Source: Hymenobacter guriensis (GTDB taxonomy: Bacteria > Bacteroidota > Bacteroidia > Cytophagales > Hymenobacteraceae). From it: a stretch of 64,000 bases of DNA. The stretch spans positions 1 through 64,000 of the forward strand of contig NZ_JADWYK010000018.1 of assembly GCF_015773195.1 (NCBI RefSeq), in the 5' to 3' direction. Position 1 is the stretch's first letter, and each line of letters starts with the position of its first letter. The notes beneath the pieces are model-generated. The model made no database searches. It was not told the DNA's origin and saw only the letters and a program-made list of their open reading frames with translations. Shown piece by piece: positions 1,371 to 6,495 of the stretch. Made by a program: the position numbers and the translations under genes.

Positions 1371-2708
1371 CTACACTGCTTCGGCTTTGCGGCGGAACAG
1401 GCCTTCGTTGAGAGAGCGGAGGGCACGGGTTTTATCAGGGGTGTTGATGAGCACGCTGATGTTGTTGGGCGAACCGCCGTAGCTGATCATGCGCAGCGGA
1501 ATGTTCTGCAGGGCGTTGAACACCTGCCGGGCCGAACCGTGGTTTTCCTGAATCAGGTTGCCGACCAGACAAATAATGGTCTGCTGCTCGTCTACTTCCA
1601 CTGTGCCGAAACTGCACAGCTCCTCCAGGATTTCGGGCAGGTGGGTAGCATCGTCGATGGTGAGGGACACGGCCACTTCCGAGGTCGTAATCATGTCGAT
1701 GGGGGTGCGGTACCGCTCAAATACTTCGAACAAGCGGCGCAGGAAGCCGTGGGCCAGCAGCATGCGGCTGCTGCGCACCTTGATGGCTACCAGCCCGTCC
1801 TTAGCCGCCACGGCCTTGATGGCTTCGTCGCCAGTTTGGGCGGATATGAGTGTGCCGGGCGCCTCGGGCTGCATGGTGTTGAGTAGGCGCACCGGAATGC
1901 CGTACTGGCGAGCCGGCAGCACCGAGCTGGGGTGCAGAATCTTCGCCCCGAAGTAGGCCAGCTCGGCCGCCTCGTCAAACGACAGCTCCCGGATGGGGTA
2001 GGTGTCTTCCACCACGCGTGGGTCGTTGTTGTGCAGCCCGTCGATGTCGGTCCAGATCTGAATTTCCTCTACCCGGGCTGCCGCCCCAATCAGCGAGGCC
2101 GAGTAGTCGGAGCCCCCGCGCTTGAGGTTGTCGATGAGGCCCTGGGCGTTGCGGCAGATGTAGCCTTGGGTGATGAACAGGGTCTGGCCATCGTGCCGGG
2201 CCAGCAGCTCCTGCAGGTGCTGCTCGATGTATGCGCCATCGGGCTCTTCGTCCTTGTCGAGGCGCATGAAGTCAAGGGCGGGCAGCAACACGGCCGGGCG
2301 GCCCAGCACGTCGGTCACGTAGCGGTGGAAAAGCTGGGTGCTCAGCAGCTCGCCCTGGGCCAGAATCAGCCGCTCGCCCACGGGCGTGAGCGGGTTGCGC
2401 ATCAAGTCGAAAATGGCCCGAAAGCAGGCATCCAGCTGGCCGATGGCGGCTGTGGCTACTTCGGCCTGAGGCAGCAGCTCGCGGGCCGTCATGAGGTAGT
2501 GCTGGCGCAGAATCTCGGTCTGAGCCGTGGCGGCCGCTATTTCGCCGTCGTAGAGCAGGCGCGCTATCGTTACCAGGGCGTTGGTGGTGCCCGACATGGC
2601 CGACAGCACCACGATGCGGGGCTCTTCGGGGGCGTGAATCAACTCGGCTACGGTGCGCATGCGCTCGGCCGTGCCTACCGACGTGCCGCCAAACTTGAGA
2701 ACTTTCAT
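1371..2708 (-). CDS. lysC: Aspartate kinase (monofunctional)
   Basis: Phosphorylates L-aspartate, the first step to lysine, threonine and methionine. The 445 residues start with the kinase motif KFGGTSVG (residues 5-12). An amino-acid-kinase domain fills about residues 1-290 and includes the SGRGGSDYSA-like stretch, here KRGGSDYSASLIG. Two C-terminal ACT-type regions (about 300-440) would bind an effector amino acid. No homoserine dehydrogenase domain follows, so it is not a ThrA fusion. The neighbour lysA suggests a lysine-dedicated enzyme. The ATG lies 42 nt after a strong hairpin plus T-run, which would place the gene under leader control. Confidence 0.94.
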   Translation of the reverse strand: MKVLKFGGTSVGTAERMRTVAELIHAPEEPRIVVLSAMSGTTNALVTIARLLYDGEIAAATAQTEILRQHYLMTARELLPQAEVATAAIGQLDACFRAIFDLMRNPLTPVGERLILAQGELLSTQLFHRYVTDVLGRPAVLLPALDFMRLDKDEEPDGAYIEQHLQELLARHDGQTLFITQGYICRNAQGLIDNLKRGGSDYSASLIGAAARVEEIQIWTDIDGLHNNDPRVVEDTYPIRELSFDEAAELAYFGAKILHPSSVLPARQYGIPVRLLNTMQPEAPGTLISAQTGDEAIKAVAAKDGLVAIKVRSSRMLLAHGFLRRLFEVFERYRTPIDMITTSEVAVSLTIDDATHLPEILEELCSFGTVEVDEQQTIICLVGNLIQENHGSARQVFNALQNIPLRMISYGGSPNNISVLINTPDKTRALRSLNEGLFRRKAEAV

Positions 2709-2753
2709 GGGAACAGAGAGGTGATATGGGTTGCGAAAGAAAAGACCAGAAAA

Positions 2754-2783
2754 AAGCGCCGACCCTTGGGAGGACCGGCGCTT
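2754..2783 (-). terminator. Intrinsic terminator or attenuator in the lysC leader
   Basis: On the minus strand the stem AAGCGCCG pairs with CGGCGCTT (extendable by wobble pairs) around a small loop and is followed at once by six T. It lies between the lysine-rich leader ORF and the lysC start, where a transcription attenuator is expected. It could also simply end a short upstream transcript. Confidence 0.7.
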
Positions 2784-2809
2784 GGAGGTTCAGATTCGGG
2801 CAAGACGAA

Positions 2810-2887
2810 CTAGTGCGACGGTCGGGTCGGGTTACATTTCTTCGATTTCTTGACCATCAGGCCGCCGCTCCGCTTGTCGCACACCAT
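2810..2887 (-). CDS. Candidate lysine-rich leader peptide
   Basis: A 25-codon ORF from ATG (2885-2887) to TAG (2810-2812). Its second half contains MVKKSKKCNPTRPSH, with four lysine codons in five positions, plus one earlier lysine. It ends 27 nt before the terminator hairpin ahead of lysC, and the hairpin ends 45 nt before the lysC ATG. A shorter version could start at the internal ATG (2855-2857). The arrangement of short ORF rich in the end product, terminator and biosynthetic gene is the classical layout of amino-acid attenuators. Translation and regulation are inferred; a stand-alone small protein cannot be excluded. Confidence 0.5.
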   Translation of the reverse strand: MVCDKRSGGLMVKKSKKCNPTRPSH

Positions 2888-2987
2888 CACCTGCTTCGCC
2901 GAAACCAGCGAAGTAGCAGAAGAAAGGTAGGTGAAAGCTGAGAACATAAGTGGTGCTGAGCGGGGCCGTTAGCTGCCCTTGTGGCTG

Positions 2988-3017
2988 CAAGTATACGGCA
3001 GGAAGTGAGAATCCAAA
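2988..3017 (-). promoter_or_regulatory. Predicted promoter of the lysC-lysA leader transcript
   Basis: Minus-strand TTTG, an 18-bp spacer and TATACTTG match the Bacteroidota pattern TTTG-N17-23-TAnnTTTG with one mismatch in the -7 box. Transcription would begin near 2981, giving a leader of about 270 nt that contains the short lysine-rich ORF and the hairpin. Confidence 0.5.
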
Positions 3018-3076
3018 AAATCTTTTTTGCGGACAGTTTACGATTTCTACGCCACGAGGTGACCCGGTATGTCGTC

Positions 3077-3742
3077 TCAGAATGAGGTATTGCTGATAGC
3101 CTCAATCAGCCAGCGGTTGTTGGCAGCCCGCACCAGGCTCACGTCCAGGGCCTCCTGCCAGTTCTCGTCGCCTTGGTTGTGGTGGGGGCCACGCGCCTTT
3201 ACCAGCGCGTGGTTTTTGTCGTGAAAAGTAGTAGCAAAGGTGCCGGCCCGCAGCTCAGTCAGCTTGGTATCGGCTTCCTGGGAATAGGTCAGAAAGTCGA
3301 AGTCAAAGCCCGGGGGCGGGCCGTCGTTTTGCGGGTGCGCCCGCAGCGAATCATTCTGCTGGCGGAAGTAGGTGCGCCATTTCTGCAGGTAGGAATCGGC
3401 GAAAAAACCGCTGGCTTTCAGGGCCGTGAGCCACTGTTCGGTGCCGGGAAAATTCACCGCGTAGAATTTCGTGGTATCCTGCCCATCCGCGTTGAGAATG
3501 AAGTCCCCCGGCAGCTTTTCCATAGTAGCGGCATACCAGCCGATAAAGCGGCGCACCGTCTGCTCAGCGGCCTGGTCAGCCGGGGCTGGTGCCTGCGGCA
3601 AAGCCGGCGCAGGAGAAGCAACAATTGAATCGGCCGGAGCAGCAGGGGCCTGGGTGGCTGGCTGCTGATTGGTACCGCAGCTTGGCAAAAGCAGTAGGAA
3701 AATGGCTGCGCAAACAGCGCGCAGAGGGTCAGAAAGCGTCAT
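3077..3742 (-). CDS. Hypothetical lipoprotein
   Basis: The 221-residue product begins with a lipoprotein signal (LLLLPSC, cysteine near residue 22), then a Pro/Ala-rich linker to about residue 55. A globular domain follows that contains VRRFIGWYAATMEKL and ends with NRWLIEAISNTSF. The FxxWY start and the solvent-exposed terminal strand resemble DUF3828-type periplasmic proteins, but I cannot fix the family. It starts 27 bp after the stop of the upstream gene at 3770-4282, so the two are probably co-transcribed. It is expected in the outer or inner membrane facing the periplasm. Confidence 0.75.
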   Translation of the reverse strand: MTLSDPLRAVCAAIFLLLLPSCGTNQQPATQAPAAPADSIVASPAPALPQAPAPADQAAEQTVRRFIGWYAATMEKLPGDFILNADGQDTTKFYAVNFPGTEQWLTALKASGFFADSYLQKWRTYFRQQNDSLRAHPQNDGPPPGFDFDFLTYSQEADTKLTELRAGTFATTFHDKNHALVKARGPHHNQGDENWQEALDVSLVRAANNRWLIEAISNTSF

Positions 3743-5614: not shown

Positions 5615-5790
5615 AGAGAATAAGGAGGAAGCTACAAGAAACGCACATTCGGCGCCCCGGCCAAACGGCGGGGCTACGGCAGCCGTCAATGCCGGTAAAA
5701 AAAGTCGTAAGTCAGTGTACTTCAGCGCCGACCCTGGTGCAGCGTGTGCCCGAAAACAGCATATTTGCCGGGAACGATACCTCCGCTGCT

Positions 5791-6495
5791 ATGGACATTG
5801 CCTACTCCCTCGTCGACAACAAGCTAACCGCCGGCCACGACCGGCGGGCGCAGGTGCATATCACCGGCACCGCTACCATTGAAGATCTGGCTGCCGACAT
5901 CGTGCGGCCCGGCTCCACCATCACCAGGGCTGAGTTTCTGGCCATGTACGAGGAGCTGAAGACGGCCGTCATCCGGCGGGCCCAGCGCGGCGAAAACGTG
6001 GTAACCGACCTGTTCGTGGTGCGCCCCAGCCTCACCGGTTCCTGGCCCGCTGCCCAGGATGCATTCGACCCGGAGCGCCACCAGGGCCGCCTGCGTTTGT
6101 CGGCCGGCACCGCCCTGCGCCGGGCCGAAACCGAGCTGCGCTTCGTGCAGGTGCGGGCCGTGAGCCAGAGCGCGCCGCGCCCCGAACAGGTGGAGGACCT
6201 GCTCACCGAGGCCATCAACACCACCTTGCGGCCCGGCGCTACGGCCCGGCTGCGCGGCGCCAACCTCAAGCACAACCCCACCGACCCCACCCAAGGCGTG
6301 TTTCTGGTGCCCGCCACCGGCAACGGTAACCCCGTCCGCCTGGAGCGCATCCTGAAGAATACGCCCTCCGAGCAGCTATTTCTGGTGCCACCCACGCTCC
6401 CGGCTGGCACTTACCGGCTGGAGGTACGTATCAAACCCCGTAATAGCAGTCATCTGCGCACGGGGACTCTGGGAGCAGTGCTTACCGTTGCGTGA
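5791..6495 (+). CDS. HU-like DNA-binding protein with C-terminal Ig-like (DUF4469-type) domain
   Basis: A 234-residue protein. The N-terminal 120 residues (MDIAYSLVDNKLT, then TGTATIEDLAADIVRPGSTITRAEFLAMYEEL) match the HU-like family found in many Bacteroidota, in which a histone-like fold binds or bends DNA. The second half (about residues 125-234, with LRGANLKHNP and LPAGTYRLEVR) looks like the DUF4469 beta-sandwich. The ATG at 5791 fits the family N-terminus; an earlier in-frame ATG at 5689 would lie upstream of a CATATTTG promoter-like box (5759-5766). A repeat array with palindromic half-sites begins only 25 bp after the stop. Confidence 0.75.
   Translation: MDIAYSLVDNKLTAGHDRRAQVHITGTATIEDLAADIVRPGSTITRAEFLAMYEELKTAVIRRAQRGENVVTDLFVVRPSLTGSWPAAQDAFDPERHQGRLRLSAGTALRRAETELRFVQVRAVSQSAPRPEQVEDLLTEAINTTLRPGATARLRGANLKHNPTDPTQGVFLVPATGNGNPVRLERILKNTPSEQLFLVPPTLPAGTYRLEVRIKPRNSSHLRTGTLGAVLTVA

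Follow-up and report, generated by a model that had tools for sequence, protein, structure and literature searches.

Several amino-acid biosynthetic operons are preceded by a short ORF rich in codons for the product, as in the His_leader, Leu_leader, Thr_leader and Trp_leader and in the ilv and phe leaders, where an antiterminator and a terminator with a common arm are mutually exclusive. The Thr_leader, rich in Thr codons, lies ahead of thrA, which encodes the bifunctional aspartokinase I/homoserine dehydrogenase, and is itself an attenuator of an aspartokinase gene. The lysine riboswitch (L-box, RF00168) is likewise an RNA element controlling lysine genes, and it uses an aptamer. In the passages of PMC3766115 considered here, attenuators are named for His, Leu, Thr and Trp (in Rfam), Ile/Val and Phe, with lysine not among them, and the lysine riboswitch is placed in Firmicutes, gamma-proteobacteria and Thermotogales. 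For Shewanella, the corresponding part of PMC2659441 gives a lysine riboswitch at lysC and a Thr_leader at thrA, and describes the same attenuation scheme. Excerpts of two further papers mention lysQ of Lactococcus lactis in connection with histidyl-tRNA (PMC4833913) and short ORFs reminiscent of leader peptides in the 5' UTRs of B. thetaiotaomicron (PMC7366714), and no lysine leader appears in the portions considered of PMC6429828, PMC2864571 and PMC11955535. A lysine-specific ribosome attenuator was not found in full-text searches of one open-access library; the 2010 survey by Lopatovskaya et al., to which PMC4833913 refers, might include one.

We analyzed a stretch of 64,000 nucleotides from Hymenobacter guriensis (hereafter the window), whose minus strand carries, in 5' to 3' order, a promoter-like sequence, a leader ORF, a terminator, lysC and lysA. 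On the basis of sequence comparison, we consider it very likely that the region ahead of lysC-lysA acts as a ribosome-mediated (classical) transcription attenuator that senses charged tRNA-Lys. Such an element would share the layout of the known attenuators and would differ from them in its Lys codons, in its Bacteroidota host, in an antiterminator arm that overlaps the leader stop codon, and in having no uniform 1:2 protector hairpin. Unlike the Thr_leader, it would read Lys codons and control a monofunctional lysC, and a Lys-codon ORF would stand in the place of the riboswitch aptamer.

The candidate promoter (3017-2988), read from the sequence, comprises TTTG (3017-3014), an 18-nt spacer and TATACTTG (2995-2988), and is called promoter-like on the basis of the Bacteroidota promoter consensus. 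The leader ORF (2947-2810), supported by its open frame and by conservation in relatives, has 45 codons, MFSAFTYLSSATSLVSAKQVMVCDKRSGGLMVKKSKKCNPTRPSH, before the stop; it contains MVKKSKKCNPT, and its C-terminus reads MVKKSKKCNPTRPSH. The Lys control codons, AAG AAA TCG AAG AAA (2851-2837), end in an AAA at 2839-2837, four codons ahead of a conserved CGA/TGA codon (2824-2822). The putative antiterminator arm, or arm 2 (GACCGTCGC, 2823-2815), overlaps the 3' end of the ORF and is complementary to a shared arm (GCGCCGGTC, 2781-2773), which is also the 5' arm of the intrinsic terminator. This terminator, located by a terminator scan and by alignment, consists of AAGCGCCGGTCC-TCCC-AAGGGTCGGCGCTT and a T tract (2783-2750), with a GC-rich stem of 13 pairs (2783-2754) running into T6. 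The gene expected to be regulated, lysC (2708-1371, ATG at 2708), encodes an aspartokinase with the Pfam domains AA_kinase and ACT_9, and the downstream lysA (1319-177) encodes a diaminopimelate decarboxylase (Orn_Arg_deC_N and Orn_DAP_Arg_deC). An initial annotation of this DNA had described the same promoter, a strong GC stem with T6, and lysC behind it, all of which are present. Its short Lys-rich ORF with MVKKSKKCNPT is present as well, whereas the length of 25 codons given there does not hold, since that ORF begins at the internal ATG 2887 and the frame is open from the ATG at 2947. On the plus strand of the window, the product of 5689-6495 carries two Pfam domains, the HU-like DNA-binding PF14848 and DUF4469.

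Scanning of the whole window with Rfam returned no family at the gathering score, including RF00168, and the five matches obtained for 2650-3100 at E<=10 were weak and included neither an amino-acid leader nor a lysine riboswitch. At 12 leader loci, no Rfam family was matched, RF00168 and the His, Leu, Thr and Trp leader models included. A lysine riboswitch was rejected on these grounds, in agreement with the initial annotation, which had seen none, and the leader differs from the Rfam attenuator families in having no sequence match to them. Lys has a frequency of 0.036 in 46 long ORFs of the window, at which the binomial P of four Lys among eight codons at a specified place is ~1e-4. A search of the window on either strand for short ORFs that combine a residue run with a terminator gave three, the leader being the sole Lys case and the others Ser-rich. 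A generic terminator scan found 1 against 0.8 expected, which is not significant alone, and folding of the entire leader gave an ordinary result (z -1.11). What carries the weight is conservation in relatives.

Searching 120 genomes of the same genus with LysC (E<=1e-100) yielded 60 genomes and 61 loci, and the leader is found directly upstream of this lysC in 56 of the 60 genomes (56/61 loci). Four genomes (G130, G142, G131 and G010; loci L099, L101, L103 and L105) keep lysC-lysA and showed no leader, and none was found upstream of the second lysC of G099 (L147); these loci were set aside before the analysis of 57 leaders and are counted as misses in the fractions above. At L099, L101, L103 and L105, lysC starts ATGAGAATT, with a common different 5' region (CATCTTG...CTTGGG) near the start codon. 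The other 60 of the 120 genomes gave no match to the window LysC (E<=1e-100) or to the second LysC of G099 (E<=1e-60). In all 57 leader-bearing loci tested, and in the four leaderless ones, lysA follows lysC.

We built a covariance model, R1, from 42 leaders. Among the matches listed within the genus, 56 were strong and full-length, in the same 56 genomes and at lysC (E<=4e-18), a result that is a completeness check and not independent proof because 41 of the 56 were already in the alignment of the model. Across 291 genomes of the order, the listed matches below 1e-10 all fell in the window's genus or in one sister genus of the family, in which three genomes carry the leader (L192-L194), also before lysC. 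Matches to R1 of ~26-36 bits elsewhere were not accepted as leaders: of 20 places inspected, 16 resembled ordinary terminators and had neither a Lys leader nor lysC, while the remaining four comprised the leaders at lysC in the three sister-genus genomes and an additional copy in G030. This copy (L191, G030:C45:126730-126875, E 6e-17) looks decayed and has few Lys codons; it keeps the GACTGTCGC arm and the same terminator, and precedes a 323-codon ORF just upstream of the G030 lysC leader, the product of which is presumably a membrane transporter, SbtA-like in appearance.

For the comparison of codons we used 60 leaders, namely the 56 from the same genus, the leader carried by Hymenobacter jeollabukensis (L008, which may or may not duplicate one genome of the same-genus set) and the three from the sister genus. 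All 60 have an in-frame ATG at 34-54 codons upstream of the arm/stop position, and in each the final Lys codon is AAA, with four codons separating it from one fixed position. The codon at this position, where arm 2 starts, is a TGA stop in 48 leaders, in which arm 2 overlaps the stop codon, and CGA in 12, in which the stop comes four codons later. Counted back from it, Lys occupies -5 in 60/60, -8 in 59/60 (as AAA in 58/60), -9 in 56/60 and -6 in 44/60; residue -7 is variable (S, C, R, H or A), and residue -6 is sometimes F, V, C, L or W. The last 20 codons hold a mean of 4.5 in-frame Lys codons (range 3-6), compared with 0.20 and 0.28 in the other frames. The short ORF is translated-looking as well as enriched in codons for the end product. 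The initial annotation had expected the ORF and its Lys codons, and not its other residues, to be kept in relatives; the alignment bears this out, as ORF and Lys codons are conserved upstream of lysC and most other residues are not, and the terminator hairpin is kept there too. The outcome it had named as refuting its proposal, an ORF or hairpin not conserved in relatives, did not arise.

In the window's ORFs, AAG (371) is commoner than AAA (233), yet codon -5 is never AAG; its conservation may thus be partly nucleotide-level, and nucleotide-level constraint may add to codon constraint at the AAA positions. Invariance or near-invariance in nucleotides, of this AAA and of the arms, would also fit a translation-independent RNA switch, either a new lysine riboswitch or a site for an RNA-binding protein, with AAG AAA acting as nucleotide signals and not as codons. 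We regard such a switch as highly unlikely, given that the leader frame is open over 34 codons in 60/60 leaders with stops in the other frames in 57/60 and 29/60, that Lys codons in the most diverged leaders (L008, L102 and L192-L194) are partly relocated by whole codons yet still frequent, and that the 12 nt from the last Lys codon to the stop position vary in sequence and never in length. The lack of an Rfam match and the ordinary whole-leader fold also argue against it.

The Lys codons might alternatively matter through the peptide. TnaC and SpeFL are nascent-peptide arrest sensors, and a Lys-rich peptide of this kind would stall the ribosome through a small molecule or its positive charge rather than through uncharged tRNA. 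Although basic C-terminal tails such as KKSKKRNPT and KKCKKRIPA could themselves slow ribosomes, peptide identity varies across clades except for Lys at a few positions, and arrest induced by lysine would be expected to turn synthesis on at plentiful lysine, the wrong sign for lysC; this reading appears to us less likely still. Attenuation that responds to other members of the aspartate family (Thr, Met and Asn) besides lysine is scarcely credible. lysC does feed all of these pathways, and many tails read MVKKSKKRNPT before the stop, with Met, Asn and Thr, but across clades only Lys is conserved, with Met at -11 in 46/60, Asn at -3 in 20/60 and Thr at -1 in 39/60.

In each of the 57 leaders examined, a terminator is present between the ORF and lysC. 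Two alignments were made, A1 with 42 of the 57 leaders (those >93% alike removed) and A2 with 53 of the 60 (identical ones removed). In A1, 91.9% of terminator cells are paired, modestly above shuffled alignments (91.2%, with 11/500 shuffles as high), and one pair shows double changes in 6 cells. The 3' arm of the terminator varies, mostly from G-C to G-U and from U-A to U-G, while the 5' arm is near-invariant, as would follow from use of the 5' arm in two helices.

The second of these helices would be an antiterminator formed with arm 2, which in 60/60 leaders begins 16 nt downstream from the first nucleotide of the final Lys codon. Between GACCGTCGC and GCGCCGGTC, 8 of 9 positions pair, with one conserved U-C mismatch; the variants of arm 2 are small (GACCGTCGT, GACCGCCGC, and GACCGCGTC in L192), and 100% of antiterminator cells are paired in 42 sequences and 99.5% in 53. 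The two complementary arms are near-invariant across a variable spacer of 31-42 nt, so covariation cannot test this helix. When the 3' arm was left out of minimum-energy folding, 60/60 leaders formed a helix between arm 2 and the 5' arm (at least 6 of 9 nt), which yields an alternative antiterminator, of the sort that the initial annotation had proposed to look for by folding, with one arm in common with the terminator. With the 3' arm included, the terminator wins in 60/60 whether arm 2 is free or masked; antitermination would consequently have to be kinetic, because equilibrium folds favor the terminator in all 60. Shuffling the letters of arm 2 still gave pairing in 441/1200 folds, indicating that composition contributes and that this pairing says little by itself. 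Fold stability of the spacer somewhat exceeds that of its shuffles (mean z -1.55, with 50/53 below zero). Arm 2 can pair upstream, as in a protector (1:2) hairpin, in 38/60 leaders, at differing places; 23 of these 38 pairings involve the bases that immediately precede the KK codons, most often GGTC.

As to the candidate promoter, 52/60 leaders have TACTTG or TATTTG at a distance of 145-216 nt upstream of the stop position (counted by hand), and TTG-N17-22-TA-N1-2-TTG occurs in 20/60 compared with 1.9 expected from mononucleotide shuffling. In L008, the palindrome TTGCGGCCGCAA starts within TACTTG, just after the -7 element and near the presumed transcription start; its counterpart in the window, TTGCAGCCACAA, is imperfect. 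The distance between terminator and ATG can be as little as about 16-21 nt (L121), and -7-like motifs occur within the gap between terminator and lysC in 2/60 leaders. A promoter in this gap was rejected for both reasons, and lysC is most simply reached by read-through. The same gaps bear on whether the ORF is a small-protein gene in its own right, ending in an ordinary terminator, that simply lies ahead of lysC. It does possess a promoter-like sequence, an ORF and a terminator of its own; however, its N-terminal part is not conserved across clades, it lies directly before lysC in 56 genus loci, and some of the gaps to lysC are too short for a promoter, which together make an independent gene extremely improbable. 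A conserved functional small protein was also rejected, as the N-terminal part varies across clades and the ORF has no Pfam match.

The conserved ORF, its Lys codons, the terminator and the alternative antiterminator are all consistent with the Lys-responsive attenuator that had been suggested for this locus. RNA polymerase would start near 2980, and a ribosome would translate the leader. When Lys-tRNA is ample, the ribosome would run on to the stop codon and mask arm 2 (2823-2815), allowing the terminator (2783-2750) to form and transcription to end before lysC. When Lys-tRNA is scarce, the ribosome would stall at these Lys codons; if the final AAA occupies its A site, arm 2 begins at +16 and, given the size of the ribosome footprint, would stay free. 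Free arm 2 could then pair with the 5' arm (2781-2773) once this is made and before the 3' arm exists, pre-empting the terminator and allowing transcription of lysC-lysA. The geometry of the arms thus suits a switch in which a ribosome at the control codons frees arm 2 and one at the stop covers it. That the leader senses charged tRNA-Lys, and in which direction it regulates, is inferred; the sign would be right for a biosynthetic operon, because stalling would free arm 2, prevent the terminator and raise lysC-lysA.

To extend the comparison to other Bacteroidota, we scanned 125 outside lysC loci for a Lys-rich ORF with a terminator, 79 from a first locus set and 46 from a phylum search in which 49 of 395 genomes matched LysC at E<=1e-110, three of them within the window's genus; the 125 may include repeats between the two collections. 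With 117 of the 125 below the cut of a detector that is crude (it picked the wrong ORF for L080), the leader does not appear to be phylum-wide. Eight loci passed (L035, L038, L068, L080, L239, L240, L013 and L023), of which L035 and L038 were rejected as leaders, since they look like the end of the upstream gene.

We searched 98 genomes of the genus of G632, assigned to Chryseobacterium by a LysC 95-100% identical to that of L080 (Chryseobacterium cucumeris), and found this lysC in 15 at E<=1e-150. These 15 together with L068 (Paenimyroides baculatum) and L080 have a Lys leader and terminator in 17/17 loci, 16 of them distinct. The leader peptide is of the type MI[LV]SNLKK[GA]KKQ[YN]LR..S before the stop, and an arm, GTCGTGA (ATCGTGA in L068), shares bases with the stop codon, while the terminator has the complementary TCACGAC in its loop and 3' arm. 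The layout is as in the window, and the sequence is unlike the window's type. In Labilibaculum and Marinifilum (L013 and L023), the Lys-rich ORFs MTHFFTYKKLYKRNKRS and MTFTLKYKKQNKRNKQLLFN precede lysC with an identical terminator core, and no clear antiterminator arm 2 was seen by eye in either. Separate origins would be claimed for the window's family, for Chryseobacterium/Paenimyroides and for Labilibaculum/Marinifilum. It seems to us an even call whether Bacteroidota control lysC by lysine-specific ribosome attenuation that arose more than once, from unrelated sequences with the same layout, in the role played elsewhere by the lysine riboswitch.

Collectively, the proposed type of attenuator is a textbook one, and what is probably new, among the described attenuators searched, is its lysine specificity and its presence in Bacteroidota. 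The element is compact, highly conserved and directly testable, and its small ORF recurs in about half of the genus. If the proposed mechanism is true, lysine would join the amino acids sensed by ribosome-mediated attenuation, and this form of control would operate in Bacteroidota, a phylum for which we found little on cis-regulatory RNAs of amino-acid operons. It may further be an instance of a riboswitch having been replaced by a non-homologous leader peptide.
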